Source: Sulfurovaceae bacterium (GTDB taxonomy: Bacteria; Campylobacterota; Campylobacteria; Campylobacterales; Sulfurovaceae). Taken from it: a stretch of 64,000 nucleotides of DNA. The stretch covers positions 1-64,000 of the forward strand of contig JADGDQ010000004.1 in the NCBI GenBank assembly GCA_016744805.1, written 5' to 3'. This document shows, one piece after another, positions 2,642 through 56,761 of the stretch. The stretch's first letter is position 1. Each line of letters opens with the position of its first letter. The translations under genes were made by a program, and so were the position numbers. The notes under the pieces were generated by a model that saw only the letters and a list, made by a program, of their open reading frames with translations, was not told the origin of the DNA and made no database searches.

Positions 2642-3534
2642 AATATGTAGGTGCACATGTGAGTGCAAGTGGAGGAGTATATAATGCTCCACTCAATGCT
2701 ATGAAGATACAAGCAAAAGCATTTGCTCTTTTTACAAAAAATCAACGCCAGTGGGTAGCAAAACCACTAGATGATGCAACTATCAATAAGTTTAAAGAAA
2801 ATCTCAAACTCTCTGGTATTTTACCCAAACATGTACTTCCCCATGATAGTTATCTTATTAACTTAGGTCATCCCGAACAAGAAAAACTAGAAAAATCTAG
2901 AACTGCATTTATTGATGAATTAGAGCGATGTGCATTACTAGGACTTGAAAAACTTAATTTTCATCCAGGAAGCCACCTTGTTAAAATAGGTAAAAAAGTT
3001 ACTAATAGAGAAGAGCTTATAGAAAAGGCCGAATATAGCTGTTTGGATATTGTAGCTGAATCTATGAATATAGCTATTAACGCAACTAAAGATTTAGATG
3101 TTAAATTAGTCATTGAGAATACTGCTGGGCAAGGGAGTAACTTGGGATATAAGTTTGAACATCTTGCATATATTATTTCACAAATAGAAGACAAGAGTCG
3201 TGTGGGAGTCTGTTTAGATACTTGTCATACCTTTACCGCAGGATATGATTTGCGTACAAAAGAGGCTTATGATATTACTATGGATGCATTTGAGTCTATA
3301 GTAGGCTTTGAATATCTTATGGGCATGCATATTAATGACTCAAAACCACCATTAGGTAGTCATGTTGATAGGCATCAATCTTTAGGAGTAGGGGAGATTG
3401 GATGGGATGCATTTGAGTTTATTATGAATGATGCACGAATAGATGATATACCATTAATCCTTGAGACTATCAACGAGGAGATCTGGAGTGAAGAGATACA
3501 AGCACTTTATGATTTAATACACATACCAAAATAA
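2638..3534 (+). CDS. nfo: Endonuclease IV (apurinic/apyrimidinic endonuclease)
   Basis: The 298-residue protein is a full-length AP endonuclease of the xylose-isomerase-like TIM-barrel fold. It cleaves the phosphodiester bond 5' of abasic sites in base excision repair. Visible metal-binding motifs are FHPGSH near residue 105, [13 protein letters not shown] near 160, CLDTCHTF near 195 and [20 protein letters not shown] near 230, which hold the histidines and acids of the tri-zinc centre. Its ATG overlaps the preceding lipoprotein stop, and the lipase-like gene starts 10 bases after its own stop, so it sits in a tight run of plus-strand genes. Confidence 0.97.
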
Positions 3535-3544
3535 AGGAATATAA

Positions 3545-4795
3545 ATGAAATATATAATACAAACCTCTCTACTTACTGTAGCCCTACTATTTACAGGCTG
3601 TCTAGGATTGGATGAGCCTGATAATGAAAATGCCTTAGGAGGTACTATAGTAGTGGATATGGATGGTGCATCTGTAAAACAGTCTCTTATAGAAGCTAAT
3701 ATACCAGGAGTGAGTGAAGAGAGTACTGTATATGGATACCGTGCATATAAAATACCGTATCTTACAACTAATCAAGAAGGACAAACTATCTCTGTTTCAG
3801 GATTAATGGTAGTTCCTACAGGTATGCCTGAGCTTGTTTATCAAGTAGGTCTCTCTTTGGTAAGTGATGACCATGGGACTATTATGAAAGATGATGAAGC
3901 TCCTACCGTCTTGGCACAAAGTACAAACTCTCCTGATGGATCAGCTATTATTATGACTTCAATCGCTGGGTTTATTACTCTACAGCCTGATTATGTAGGC
4001 TTTGGTGATTCAAGAGAACAGTATCATCCTTTTGTACTCAAAAAATCTTTGGCAAATGCTAGTATTGATTTTATCTATGCTGCCCAAGAGTTTGCTGCTG
4101 AGAATAATATCAAACTTAATGGTCAACTATTTCTTACAGGATATAGTGAAGGGGGCTATGCAGCTCTAGCAACTTTACAAGCGATAGAAGCAGATCATAA
4201 ATTTTTAGAAGTCACAATGGCAGCACCTATGGCTGGACCCTATGATATGAATACTACAGCATTTGGTGTTCTAAGCCAAGCAAATCTCTCTGTACCATCT
4301 TTTATGGCAAATGTTGGGTATTCGTATGCTACAGCATATAATGAGCCTATGGAGAGTGTTTTTAATGAACCTTATGCCTCTGAAGTAGCAGAGCTTATGA
4401 GTGGTAGCTATTCAAGTACAGAAGTAGATGCAGAACTTACAGATGTAACTACAGGTAATTTTGGTCTCTTTACTATGGAATTTACAAAAGAGTTTTTCAA
4501 CAATGACCAGCAGTGGTTTAGACAAGCTATAGTTGAAAATAGTGTGCATAACTGGAAACCTATAACACCTGTTAGATTAGTCCATTGTGAAGGAGATGAA
4601 GTTATCCCTTATGGTATTGCAGAACTTACGGTTAATAGTATGCAAAGCTTAGGTGCAACAAATGTAGCTATTATGCCTGTAGAGTCGCTTCTTGGTATCT
4701 CACAAAAGTTAGGACATAGTACTTGCGGTCTTTATGCGTATGGACTTACGGCACAAATGTTTGCCCAAATACGCAAAAATACAATGAAATATTAG
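3545..4795 (+). CDS. Lipase-like alpha/beta-hydrolase lipoprotein
   Basis: The 416-residue protein begins with a lipoprotein signal ending LLFTGC (Cys at residue 19). It carries an alpha/beta-hydrolase core with the nucleophile elbow GYSEGGYAAL near residue 202, a probable acid in CEGDEVIPYG near 350 and the histidine in KLGHSTCG near 390. This order matches the secretory lipase (LIP) type family that contains fungal and bacterial extracellular lipases. It should sit on the envelope facing outward and hydrolyse esters. It is followed nine bases later by a FadL porin and then an acyl-CoA ligase, so release of fatty acids for uptake is a sensible reading. The substrate is inferred from context only. 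Confidence 0.82.
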   Translation: MKYIIQTSLLTVALLFTGCLGLDEPDNENALGGTIVVDMDGASVKQSLIEANIPGVSEESTVYGYRAYKIPYLTTNQEGQTISVSGLMVVPTGMPELVYQVGLSLVSDDHGTIMKDDEAPTVLAQSTNSPDGSAIIMTSIAGFITLQPDYVGFGDSREQYHPFVLKKSLANASIDFIYAAQEFAAENNIKLNGQLFLTGYSEGGYAALATLQAIEADHKFLEVTMAAPMAGPYDMNTTAFGVLSQANLSVPSFMANVGYSYATAYNEPMESVFNEPYASEVAELMSGSYSSTEVDAELTDVTTGNFGLFTMEFTKEFFNNDQQWFRQAIVENSVHNWKPITPVRLVHCEGDEVIPYGIAELTVNSMQSLGATNVAIMPVESLLGISQKLGHSTCGLYAYGLTAQMFAQIRKNTMKY

Positions 4796-51870: not shown

Positions 51871-52905
51871 ATGCAAACAGATTATTATTTTATGATGGCT
51901 ACCTCTTTTGTTTTATCCTTTATATTTATTAAACTTATTATTAAATATGCTACAAAACTTAACCTAGTCGATGTACCAAATAGCAGAAGTACACATAAGC
52001 ATACTACTCCTCGTGGTGCGGGTATTGGTATATTTTTAAGTATTACTACGGTAATACTCTTTACGCACTTCTCCTTGTTTATGGAATATATTTTAAGCTT
52101 TATAGGCATGATATTTATTTTTGGGATGGGCATTTGGGATGATAGGCATGATGTAAAACCCAAAACGAAATTTTTGCTTATTATTCTCTCTTCAATTTTG
52201 ATTTATATGGATAATATTCAAATTACAACACTTGGAACTTATTTTGGTTTTGATGTCTCTTTAGGATATTTAGCACTCCCCTTTACTATTTTGGCAGTAG
52301 TAAGTTTTACTAATGCTTTTAATCTTATTGATGGTTTGGATGGCTTAAGTGCTGGTATTGGATTGATTATTATGGCATCTTTAGCATCTATTGGATACCA
52401 ATATAATGATGAATTTATTTTGATTATTAGTCTATTTACTATGGCATCTTTAGTTGCATTTTTATTTTTTAATTGGAGTCCAGCTTCGATATTTATGGGA
52501 GATAGTGGGAGTTTGACTATTGGTTTTATTATTTCACTTTTGAGTATTAAGTCCTTAGAGTATATACATCCTATAACTATTTTCTATATTACTGCTTTGC
52601 CTATTCTGGATACGGTGATTGTTTTTGTGCGTAGAATCAGAAGTGGGCATTCTCCTTTTGAAGCAGATAAAAGTCATATCCATCATATACTCTTAGATTT
52701 TTTTAAAAATAATGTAAGTAGAACTGTGAGTTATCTTTTTTTAGTTCAGCTTCTATTTACACTTGCAGGATTGAGTAGTTTTATGTCTACGAGTGATGGA
52801 GCATTTGGACTATTTGTCTTTAGTATTATTCTTTGGCTTAGCTATATGACCTTTACAGGTATGTACACAAGGCAACAACAACTCCTAGATAGGAGGGAAA
52901 AATGA
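51871..52905 (+). CDS. Undecaprenyl-phosphate sugar-1-phosphate transferase (WecA/TagO type)
   Basis: The 344-residue protein has about ten membrane helices and the MraY/WecA motifs: LVDVPNSRSTHKHTTPRGAG near residue 31, GIWDDRHDVKPKTK near 87, AFNLIDGLDGLSAGIG near 148 with the catalytic aspartates, SIFMGDSGSLTIGF near 206 and the WecA-type HIHH cluster in EADKSHIHHILLD near 265. It loads a sugar phosphate, commonly GlcNAc-1-P, on undecaprenyl phosphate to start O-antigen or other glycan synthesis. No glycan cluster is beside it. Its stop overlaps the lipoprotein start. Confidence 0.93.
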   Translation: MQTDYYFMMATSFVLSFIFIKLIIKYATKLNLVDVPNSRSTHKHTTPRGAGIGIFLSITTVILFTHFSLFMEYILSFIGMIFIFGMGIWDDRHDVKPKTKFLLIILSSILIYMDNIQITTLGTYFGFDVSLGYLALPFTILAVVSFTNAFNLIDGLDGLSAGIGLIIMASLASIGYQYNDEFILIISLFTMASLVAFLFFNWSPASIFMGDSGSLTIGFIISLLSIKSLEYIHPITIFYITALPILDTVIVFVRRIRSGHSPFEADKSHIHHILLDFFKNNVSRTVSYLFLVQLLFTLAGLSSFMSTSDGAFGLFVFSIILWLSYMTFTGMYTRQQQLLDRREK

Positions 52906-53417
52906 AAAAAATAGTTGTAGTTTTTGCTATTTTGGTTATAATATTTGGGTGTGAATCAAAAGAAGAGCTAGCTCAGGCCAAACAAGCACAGCTCTATAAA
53001 GAGGCACAACAAACGCAACTCAAAGAGATACAGTTAGCTAAAGAGAGAAAAGACCAAGAAGAAGCACTTGCGAAGCAACAGGCTATAAAAGAGGCAAATG
53101 AGTCTACTCTAACAAAGCTAGGTGTTACAATGGATGAGGGTAAACTAGTTATAGATACCAATAAAGCAAAAGATTTTTTTGCTAAACTCTCTGATAGCTT
53201 CACTACTACCTCTCAAAAGATAGATAAAGAGCTCAAAGAGGGTAATCTAACGGCTACGAAAGATATGGGTGTAGAGATAAGTAACAGTAGTGTAACTTTA
53301 GATTTTAATAAAACTAAAGATTTCTTTGAGCGATGGGGTCAAAAAATAGAGCAACTCTCTAAAGAAATAGAGCTATTTGAAGAAGCTATAGATGATAAGA
53401 ATTTATCAAAAAAATAA
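52902..53417 (+). CDS. Coiled-coil lipoprotein with internally repeated motif
   Basis: The 171-residue protein has a lipoprotein signal ending VIIFGC (Cys at residue 17). Residues 20-65 are a Gln/Lys/Glu/Ala coiled coil. Then a unit occurs twice: LGVTMDEGKLVIDTNKAKDFF near residue 73 and MGVEISNSSVTLDFNKTKDFF near 120, each followed by a helix (AKLSDSF; ERWGQKIEQL). The unit has a beta-hairpin-then-helix look. ATGA overlap with the wecA-like gene couples translation, and the FTR-rhodanese gene follows 20 bases later. No family is known to me. Confidence 0.75.
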   Translation: MKKIVVVFAILVIIFGCESKEELAQAKQAQLYKEAQQTQLKEIQLAKERKDQEEALAKQQAIKEANESTLTKLGVTMDEGKLVIDTNKAKDFFAKLSDSFTTTSQKIDKELKEGNLTATKDMGVEISNSSVTLDFNKTKDFFERWGQKIEQLSKEIELFEEAIDDKNLSKK

Positions 53418-53437: not shown

Positions 53438-54178
53438 ATGATGCAACAGATAGATATGAATTCCCCAGAGTTTAAAGCTGAAATGGAAAAAACAGAGCAG
53501 TTCGTAGAAAAAGTTAATAAGCAGTTTAATTTTGTTCAAAACCCGAATGAAGAGGTTAACGAAGGTGTAACTATGGGGCTTGCTCGAAATCGTATAATTT
53601 ATGGAAAAAGATTTTGTCCATGTTTTATGGTTATAGGTGAGACTAAAGAGGAGAGAAAAACAGCAGATAATCGTATTTGTCCATGTAAACCAGCTCTTGA
53701 AAAAGAGATTCCTGAAGATGGTTTATGTCATTGTGGTATTTTCTGTACACCAGAATATGCTGAGTCACAAAGAGTTAAAGATGAGATAGAAGAGGTTGTG
53801 CATCAACACTCTAAAGGTCTATCTCATGAACAAGCTGAGATTCTTCTTAAGCAAGAGCAACTCGATGGTGATGAGTTAGAAGCACTTATCGAAGCAAGAG
53901 ACTTGGGTATGATTTCGTTTGAGCTTGTAGATGTTCGTGAGCTTATGGAGTGGCAGATGGGTCATATTGTAGGCACAGATACACTTATCCCAACTTCACA
54001 GTTTTATGCAAAAGTAGAAGATATTAATGATAAAAAAGAGACACCAATTATTGTATATTGTCATACAGGTAGTAGAAGTTTCCAAGTCCAACATGCTATG
54101 AAAGCATTAGGTTTTGAGCAAATTTCAAATCTTAAATATGGTATTGTGAGCTTTAATGGTGAGACACAAAGAGGCTAA
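53438..54178 (+). CDS. Ferredoxin:thioredoxin reductase catalytic-type domain fused to a rhodanese domain
   Basis: The 246-residue protein has two domains. Residues 10-125 match the FTR catalytic beta chain, with the cysteine pattern CPC (KRFCPCF near 62), CPC (RICPCK near 83) and CHC (GLCHCGIFC near 98) that holds a 4Fe-4S cluster and a redox disulfide. Residues 145-246 are rhodanese-like, with FELVDVRELMEWQMGHI and the active loop IVYCHTGSRSFQV near 210. A helical linker joins them. It may use an iron-sulfur cluster to reduce a disulfide or persulfide on a sulfur carrier. No FTR variable chain or thioredoxin is next to it. The fusion's role is inferred. Confidence 0.88.
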   Translation: MMQQIDMNSPEFKAEMEKTEQFVEKVNKQFNFVQNPNEEVNEGVTMGLARNRIIYGKRFCPCFMVIGETKEERKTADNRICPCKPALEKEIPEDGLCHCGIFCTPEYAESQRVKDEIEEVVHQHSKGLSHEQAEILLKQEQLDGDELEALIEARDLGMISFELVDVRELMEWQMGHIVGTDTLIPTSQFYAKVEDINDKKETPIIVYCHTGSRSFQVQHAMKALGFEQISNLKYGIVSFNGETQRG

Positions 54179-54220: not shown

Positions 54221-54853
54221 CTATTTTTCTGTACCATTTAAAACAGGTACAAAACGACACAGTTCAATCTCTTCACTACTAATCCGTCCATTTCTTTTGT
54301 AAAATCTTTTGATAACTTCTTGAGAGCCTATTTCTATGGGAGCAATAAGTATGCCTCCTTCGGCTAGTTGATCAAAAAGTACTTGAGGGATCTCTTTGGC
54401 AGTAGCAGAGAAGAGTATTCTATCATAGGGTGCATAATCTCTCCAACCTCTCTGTCCATCATCAAATCGTGTAAATACATTATTAATTTCTAAATGACCA
54501 AAACGATTTCTAGCTTCTTTGATAAGAGTATCAATTCGCTCTATAGTAAAAACGCGACGACATATTTTAGAGAGTATAGCAGCTTGGTAGCCACTTCCAC
54601 AGCCTACTTCAAGTACACTGTCAGCATTTTTTAAATCAAGATACTGTGTCATTTTGGCTACAGTCAAAGGAGAGCTAATCCATTGACTAGCTGCAATAGG
54701 TAAAGCATCAAGTTTGTAAGCAAAGTGACCAAATCCACCAGGAACAAAAGCCTCACGATCTATAGCTAAAAAAGCATTCTGAATATAAGGTTCTAAGGGA
54801 AACTCTTTTTCTATCTCTTGAACCATTCTTTGTAGCTTTATAGATGATACCAT
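54221..54853 (-). CDS. pcm: Protein-L-isoaspartate O-methyltransferase
   Basis: The 210-residue SAM enzyme shows the PCMT pattern: AFLAIDREAFVPGGFGHFAY near residue 28, QWISSPLTVAKMTQYLDL near 58, VLEVGCGSGYQAAILSKI near 80 and RFDDGQRGWRDYAPYDRIL near 125. It methylates isoaspartyl residues in aged proteins to start repair. AAAGAAG precedes the ATG. It is convergent with the FTR-rhodanese gene. The 167 bases upstream, to 55020, hold nothing I can identify. Confidence 0.93.
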   Translation of the reverse strand: MVSSIKLQRMVQEIEKEFPLEPYIQNAFLAIDREAFVPGGFGHFAYKLDALPIAASQWISSPLTVAKMTQYLDLKNADSVLEVGCGSGYQAAILSKICRRVFTIERIDTLIKEARNRFGHLEINNVFTRFDDGQRGWRDYAPYDRILFSATAKEIPQVLFDQLAEGGILIAPIEIGSQEVIKRFYKRNGRISSEEIELCRFVPVLNGTEK

Positions 54854-55020
54854 AGCAATACTTCTTTCTGTAATTTTAATAAATATATTTATTCATAGTA
54901 AAAAATATTATACCGAAAATATTATTAATAAAAAAACTCTACTATGATAAAATCAAATAATTTTAATAAAAAACAGCTTTTTACAGAGTAGCTATATAAT
55001 TTTGTTGTGACATTTATAGA

Positions 55021-55749
55021 TTAGTCTAATACAATGTATCGACGCATCTTTTTGACTTCATTAAGATTAATATCTTTTGTGATAGAAAATTGTGTATCAT
55101 CACTAATAACTTCTCCTTGAGGAGATATAATAGCTGAAGAACTAGCCATGTCTTTATCTTTACTATTAGATAAAATTACAAATGATTGATTCATTACTCC
55201 TAATGCCCGTACAAGTACCTCTAAGTGCTGTTTCCTAGCTAATCCCCATCTAGCAGGTATCAATACAATATCAACCCCTTCTATCTGTTTCCATAGCTCT
55301 TTAAATCTAAGTTCAAAACAGATTAATAATCCATAAGAGACTCCATCTATCTTAAATGGTTTGATTTTTTTAGTTTTTCCCGCTTGGAGATATTTATGTT
55401 CATCACCTAATCTAAAGAGTTTGGCTTTATTTTGTTTATGTACAATTTTGTGATTATGAATAACTATGGCTTGATTTACAAAGCCATCCTTCTCTTTTTT
55501 GATAATAGTCAAGACGACTATTTGTTTATCAACTCTTTTTTTTAATATTTTTATTGCATTTGCCGAGAATTTTTCTGCTGTAGAGATATGCTCATAATCA
55601 TACCCTGTCAAAAATACTTCAGGGATTACAATTAAATTATCATTTTTATGTTTATCTAAAAGTTCAAGGAGTATTTCTAGATTTTTTTTGTATCGTCTTT
55701 TTGTTGGAAGCTGTAGAGTTACAGCTTTTATATTTTTTTTAAAAATCAT
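55021..55749 (-). CDS. Carbon-nitrogen hydrolase (nitrilase family)
   Basis: The 242-residue protein has the Glu-Lys-Cys triad of the nitrilase superfamily: [15 protein letters not shown] near residue 40, [15 protein letters not shown] near 108 and [14 protein letters not shown] near 142. Such enzymes hydrolyse amides, often omega-amides or deaminated glutathione, in the cytoplasm. The ATG overlaps the nrdB stop by 11 bases, so it is translationally coupled to ribonucleotide reductase, a pairing that may be only positional. Substrate unknown. Confidence 0.88.
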
Positions 55750-56761
55750 CCATATCCAAACTTCCTTTTGAGTAGTTAGCTACATTCCCCTCAAAGAAAT
55801 TAGTTTTTTGATCATTAAATTTAGAAAAGCTATCAACCCATTTAATAGGGTGTTGTACATTGTAGATACGATTAAGCCCTACAGCCGTAAGTCTCTCATC
55901 AGCTAGGTACTGTATATACTGCTCTATAATATCATCAGTTAATCCTAATATCTGTCCTTGGGTAATATATTTTCCCCATTCACTCTCTAATCGTACCGCG
56001 TCACGGAACATTTGATAAATATCTTCAAGAAATGCAGGAGTAAATATCTCTGGTCTCTCTCTTTTGGTTACATTTATCATATTTTGGAATAAAAGCAAGT
56101 GTGTTACTTCATCTCTTTGGATAAAACGAATCATCTGTGCAGACCCTAACATTTTGCCTGATCGTGCTAATGTATAGAGGTAGGTAAAACCACTATAAAA
56201 ATAGATTCCTTCAAGTATCTGATTTGCAAACATAGCTTTAACAATATTCTCATCAGAAGGGTTTTCGGAGAGTTCTTCATAGATATTGGCAATAGCATCA
56301 TTTTTGGATTTTAGTTTCATATCTCTTCGCCATAAATCATAAATCTCATCAGAATTTGTAGAGATACTATCTACCATAACAGCATAACTTTGTGAGTGAA
56401 GAGCCTCTTCAAATGCTTGTCTTACAAGAATCAAGTTGATCTCAGGAGAGGTAATAAAAGGATTGAGGTTGTCAATAATATTATTTGTTTGTAAAGAGTC
56501 CATAAATATTAATTGTGCCAACACTTTATCGTACGCAGATTTTTCTGCATCTATAAGATGTTTATAATCACTTACATCTTTGGTCATATCTACTTCTTTT
56601 GGAAACCAAGTATTATTAAGCATAACTTCCCAAAGATTATATGCCCATTGATATTTAATATCATTTAATTCAAAAATCCCTGTGGGATCACCACCAAAAA
56701 TTTTACGGTCTTTGGTTTTCTCTTGAGAATTTGGGTTATATATTTTTTTTCTATTGATCAT
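55739..56761 (-). CDS. nrdB: Ribonucleoside-diphosphate reductase, class I beta subunit
   Basis: The 340-residue ferritin-like protein has the iron ligands in [15 protein letters not shown] near residue 120, where the tyrosine in HSQSY is at the place of the radical tyrosine of the Escherichia coli enzyme, and in [13 protein letters not shown] near 215. The C-terminus (DMDDF) is the acidic tail that docks into the alpha subunit. With NrdA it makes deoxyribonucleotides. nrdA is not in the window. The nitrilase-family gene follows in an overlap. Confidence 0.95.

Follow-up and report, generated by a model that had tools for sequence, protein, structure and literature searches.

A ferredoxin:thioredoxin reductase catalytic domain joined to a rhodanese in a single protein of Campylobacterota

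An open reading frame from a Sulfurovum-like bacterium combines a complete catalytic (beta) domain of ferredoxin:thioredoxin reductase (FTRc) with a complete rhodanese domain, and its relatives keep the two parts linked through fusion or adjacency. The reading that we favour, tentatively and at somewhat less than an even chance, is that the protein acts as a ferredoxin-dependent thiol/persulfide reductase, with the tethered rhodanese cysteine, Cys208, as its main partner and sulfide as the released product. The gene lies on the forward strand at 53438–54178 of the window, the 64,000-nucleotide stretch of contig that was analysed, and encodes 246 amino acids from an ATG start. The host is a metagenome-assembled genome (MAG; 2.33 Mb in 94 contigs, 92.7% complete), in the whole of which this open reading frame is the only match to PF02943. 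The closest relatives of the protein, at 95% amino acid identity, come from Sulfurovum and Sulfurovaceae MAGs. The same architecture was found at about 100 other loci examined (53–95% identity), and such recurrence places it far beyond chance.

The original prediction had placed the FTR cysteine pattern CPC/CPC/CHC and a rhodanese CHTGSRS loop on one polypeptide, and Pfam bore this out. The FTRc domain (residues 15–121; 53480–53800, forward strand) matched PF02943 (FeThRed_B) with an E value of 2.6e-35 and a score of 121.1 bits against a cut-off of 22, covering profile positions 1–105 of 106. The rhodanese domain (residues 145–240; 53870–54157, forward strand) matched PF00581 with an E value of 1.7e-14 and 54.6 bits (cut-off 22.2). 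There are eight cysteines in all, at positions 60, 62, 81, 83, 97, 99, 103 and 208, and all but Cys103 form the motifs C60-P-C62, C81-P-C83, C97-H-C99 and C208-H-T-G-S-R-S; among the 198 open frames of at least 60 amino acids in the window, either motif occurs solely in this one. An AlphaFold2 model built with 81 sequences (pLDDT 89.9, pTM 0.64) was matched by Foldseek to FTRc (1dj7) and to many rhodaneses, including those of BpPRF and CoADR-RHD. Each domain is confidently folded in the model, which leaves their relative orientation loose; at this pTM a contact between Cys208 and Cys62/Cys99 is not given by the model, which counts against our favoured reading, and the interdomain geometry was discarded as unusable.

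Conservation was assessed on 118 distinct fusion-length sequences, 117 of which are genuine fusions. The remaining sequence (L146) had been binned by length and was not counted as a fusion, having no rhodanese loop; its 215 amino acids (L146:1207-1854, genome G061) comprise a divergent FTRc core, which carries CPC/CPC/CHC and lacks Cys103, and a C-terminal half that is unrelated. The six FTR cysteines are present in 118/118 sequences, and in the alignment each has its counterpart among the CPC/CPC/CxC cysteines of two FTRc proteins of solved structure, 7pwe and 4tpu. By homology with FTR, Cys60 (53615–53617), the first cysteine of the first CPC, is a predicted [4Fe-4S] ligand, and Cys62 (53621–53623), the second, is the predicted nucleophilic cysteine of the redox disulfide. 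Cys81-Pro-Cys83 (53678–53686; invariant) would supply two more cluster ligands, and Cys97-His98-Cys99 (53726–53734; His98 in 117/118) a further ligand, a histidine and the second cysteine of the disulfide. In the rhodanese active-site loop, C208-HTGSR-S214 (54059–54079), Cys208 and GSRS are kept in 117/118. All of these features lie on the forward strand, as do the following two. An extra cysteine, Cys103 (53744–53746), occurs in 116/118 sequences at a position where 4tpu and 7pwe have valine; it was also found in standalone FTRc paralogs within the phylum, and is therefore not tied to the fusion. Mean pairwise identity over the 118 sequences is 75% for the FTRc domain, 60% for the rhodanese and 49% for the linker, and despite the last figure a linker motif H-S-x-G-L (residues 124–128; 53807–53821) is nearly invariant (H 112/118, S 110/118, G 116/118, L 114/118). 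This motif was seen in fusions only and is missing from the standalone rhodaneses examined.

Sixty Sulfurovaceae genomes were scanned with PF02943 and with a profile of the rhodanese subfamily to which the fused domain belongs. The fusion itself is present in 40 of the 60. In 11 genomes, six of which also have a fusion, a standalone FTRc gene is directly followed by a separate gene for a rhodanese of this subfamily; in Sulfurovum mangrovi, for example, where Pfam confirmed both domains, FTRc and rhodanese are the neighbouring genes LN246_RS15100/15105, with about 66 bp between them. The gatC / FTRc-rhodanese / dapE gene order seen there recurs among other Sulfurovaceae. FTRc is fused or adjacent to a subfamily rhodanese in 45 of the 51 Sulfurovaceae genomes that bear FTRc, and that the separate genes lie side by side is a reason to think that the two parts are functionally coupled. 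In a rhodanese tree the fused domains form one clade (87/89, in 86% of bootstrap trees), and the FTRc-adjacent rhodaneses are nearest to it, in a group of 96/99, apart from the other rhodaneses of the same genomes. The FTRc tree (113 columns, 158 rows) was poorly resolved. Exclusive association of the subfamily with FTRc was ruled out: its 80 members comprise 40 fused to FTRc, 11 beside a standalone FTRc, 4 beside a fusion and 25 unlinked, some of these near contig ends. Conversely, 24 of the 75 FTRc genes in Sulfurovaceae have no rhodanese nearby, and one f2 genome (L137) retains the FTRc part alone at its rplI-hslV locus. FTRc can thus work without the rhodanese, which counts against our favoured reading.

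The phylogenetic spread of the fusion, which the original prediction had proposed as a check, proved to be broad, taking in many Campylobacterota families. PF02943 was detected in 164 of 397 sampled genomes of the phylum, mostly in open reading frames of about 245–275 amino acids, and most genomes hold a single fused copy. Such frames occur in families f1, f4 and f6 to f11, and f2, f3 and f5 are essentially without them. From the loci whose source is named, we take f1 to be Sulfurovaceae; f6 appears to group with Arcobacteraceae, and a Sulfurimonas-type MAG appears to fall with f7. On these assignments f2 and f3 would be mainly host-associated families. A search of genome contigs returned 347 relatives, and the 80 kept were Campylobacterota MAGs and strains, one labelled just 'bacterium'. 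The FTRc part found Sulfurovum mangrovi as its sole match among plasmids and had no match among INPHARED phages. One predicted viral contig in IMG/VR (IMGVR_UViG_3300005430_001001; L188:2986-3309) encodes a 107-residue FTRc (PF02943 E value 7.4e-30) with the same seven cysteines.

The genes around the fusion are often of a housekeeping kind. In f7 and f8 genomes the order is argG-fusion-rplI-hslV-hslU-era, and in one relative (L115) korDABC lies directly upstream. In the window, a small lipoprotein-like gene without a Pfam match (52902–53417, forward strand) precedes the fusion and is possibly co-transcribed with it; most Sulfurovum have a homolog of it, of low identity, directly upstream of the fusion (51 of 81 loci). 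Beside the fusion in the window (54221–56761) are genes for pcm, a CN-hydrolase and nrdB, and at another locus (L123) genes of these three kinds lead into a standalone FTRc. No sulfur-oxidation or sulfur-reduction gene recurred beside the fusion across the loci compared, which tells against our favoured reading. The suggestion that the protein is attractive in a sulfur oxidiser was too narrow on this ground and because Arcobacteraceae-like genomes carry the fusion too.

FTR normally needs a variable chain, as the original prediction pointed out, and here that chain is missing: PF02941, the variable (alpha) chain, was detected in 0 of 60 Sulfurovaceae genomes, the window's own included, and the S. 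elongatus control was positive. A standalone FTRc gene lies directly upstream of the fusion at several loci (L102, L103, L105, L106 and L125, the last at 2726-3780) and in f4 genomes (L139-L152). It is a matter of speculation that this second FTRc might fill the variable chain's structural place, a pair of catalytic chains replacing the alpha/beta heterodimer. In one genome (G039; L144/L153/L154) stops appear to break the fusion, and the upstream standalone FTRc is intact. For electron supply, the window's own genome encodes two gamma subunits of 2-oxoacid:ferredoxin oxidoreductases, enzymes that would reduce ferredoxin.

On our favoured reading the fusion would be a cytoplasmic, ferredoxin-dependent thiol reductase. 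Homology with FTR suggests that a [4Fe-4S] cluster held by Cys60, Cys81, Cys83 and Cys97 sits beside a Cys62–Cys99 disulfide, and that the N-terminal domain receives two one-electron reductions from ferredoxin. The main partner of the FTRc domain would be the tethered Cys208, not a separate thioredoxin. Thiosulfate, polysulfide or a low-molecular persulfide may donate a sulfane sulfur to Cys208; the persulfide so formed would then be reduced by Cys62/Cys99 in their reduced state, which would set sulfide free and return Cys208 to its starting form. The retention of all catalytic cysteines in both domains of 117 distinct fusions, the two modes of linkage, the single clade of fused rhodaneses, the absent variable chain, the ferredoxin-reducing oxidoreductases and the kor genes upstream of one relative are all consistent with this scheme. 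So are the genes that adjoin unlinked subfamily rhodaneses, which, judged by eye without a profile, are DsbD-like, thioredoxin and NifU-like. On the other side, a sulfite/nitrite-reductase-type protein of 644 amino acids is already encoded in the genome, so that there is no forced need for a further sulfide source. The reduction of a persulfide or a rhodanese-bound disulfide, as originally put forward from the motifs, is a plausible mechanism. The wider claim is that the fusion may represent a type of enzyme not described before: a [4Fe-4S] persulfide reductase that depends on ferredoxin, has a tethered rhodanese as substrate arm and turns sulfane sulfur into sulfide throughout much of free-living Campylobacterota. 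This we regard as less likely than not.

The strongest competing explanation, to which we give a definite minority share, is that the protein is a general ferredoxin:disulfide reductase, its rhodanese serving as thiol relay or docking module, and that no persulfide is involved. Electrons would pass from ferredoxin to the cluster, to Cys62/Cys99 and, perhaps through Cys208, to a target protein or a thioredoxin-like disulfide. FTRs and FDRs are known disulfide reductases (PMC7278568), which suits this route, as do the genomes that keep FTRc alone and the thioredoxin genes found after one free subfamily rhodanese and near the S. mangrovi pair. A pure docking module, however, would not require the loop cysteine that every genuine fusion keeps, and nearly all of these genomes have a thioredoxin reductase (TrxB).

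That last point rests on a phylum-wide count: TrxB was found at E ≤ 1e-40 in 393 of 397 genomes, including almost all fusion carriers. A plain thioredoxin-reductase role is therefore already filled and the fusion does not just stand in for that enzyme, an observation that favours the persulfide reading. No TrxB exceeded the cut-off in the window's own genome; given a MAG about 93% complete and the near-universal presence of TrxB in the phylum, this gap probably reflects missing sequence.

Delivery of sulfur is an unlikely alternative role. Here the rhodanese would supply sulfane sulfur for Fe-S cluster assembly, thiouridine synthesis or another insertion, and FTRc would reduce the persulfide or repair the acceptor. 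NifU-like genes lie next to free subfamily rhodaneses in two genomes, and MoeZ/MoeB rhodanese domains are among the sub-cut-off NCBIfam matches, yet none of the Fe-S, Moco or tRNA-thiolation genes is recurrent near the fusion. Slightly less likely again is a persulfide/polysulfide sensor or redox regulator, in which modification of Cys208 or Cys103 would control the cluster as part of a housekeeping response and not of bulk metabolism. The argG-rplI-hslVU-era surroundings, the single fused copy and the conserved Cys103 would fit such a role, but Pfam detected no DNA-binding or signalling domain in the protein and the catalytic residues are fully conserved. It is very improbable that the cell relies on the fusion as its main thioredoxin reductase, in place of the NADPH-dependent enzyme: the lack of a TrxB over the cut-off in the window's own genome is contradicted at the level of the phylum.

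Textbooks present FTR as the link from photosynthetic electrons to the regulation of thiols. The fusion is a variant of the FTR family and not a separate category: it resembles the FTR catalytic chain (1dj7; chloroplast 7bzk) in PF02943, in the CPC/CPC/CHC cysteines and in fold, and differs in its Cys103, its C-terminal rhodanese, its non-photosynthetic host and the absence of a variable chain from the Sulfurovaceae genomes scanned. The closest solved FTRc sequences, 4tpu and 7pwe (deposited as rubredoxin and FTR subunit B, respectively), belong to FDR / FTRc-rubredoxin proteins, in which the FTRc domain is likewise fused or longer than the plain chain; in the fusion a rhodanese takes the partner's place and lies C-terminal to FTRc. 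The NCBIfam FtrB double-selenoprotein NF041072 is of the same FTRc superfamily, but the fusion scored 63.6 bits against a cut-off of 160 and has no selenocysteine, using Cys codons throughout. Relatives with a TGA apparently inside the gene were also rejected as selenoproteins, since these are short genes that end at TGA, all with Cys. BpPRF (5ve3), a persulfide dioxygenase-rhodanese, likewise pairs a sulfur enzyme with a rhodanese domain. Its partner domain is a dioxygenase of metallo-beta-lactamase fold, which oxidises, whereas the enzyme half of the fusion is a ferredoxin-linked reductase. Nearest in design logic is CoADR-RHD (3icr), a disulfide reductase with a C-terminal rhodanese. CoADR-RHD is a flavin and NAD(P)H enzyme; the fusion, in contrast, is predicted to use [4Fe-4S] and ferredoxin.

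Database annotation already names both domains, and the function of the fusion is apparently undescribed. A search of the open-access literature found no paper pairing FTR with Campylobacterota or Sulfurimonas, or FTRc with rhodanese; papers with both FTR and rhodanese, PMC2398784 among them, dealt with selenoproteins or with plant and cyanobacterial data sets. What stands out is an FTR catalytic chain, without its variable chain, joined to a sulfur carrier across a largely chemosynthetic phylum that is important at vents and in sulfidic water. If ferredoxin electrons do reduce persulfides here, the low-potential ferredoxin pool would be connected with sulfane sulfur by a new route. The fusion also offers a single soluble protein for testing the action of an FTR-type cluster on persulfides.

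In the transcriptome of Sulfurovum indicum two rhodaneses rise about 2.8-fold on S0 (PMC10045233). These are probably not the fusion, as an adjacent pair of rhodaneses of about 205 amino acids lies roughly where their tags would fall in genome G225 (473921-474873). A similar adjacent pair, of about 210 amino acids each, is present in genome G000 (G000:C62:23422-24380), and resembles the G225 pair that may match the S0-induced genes.
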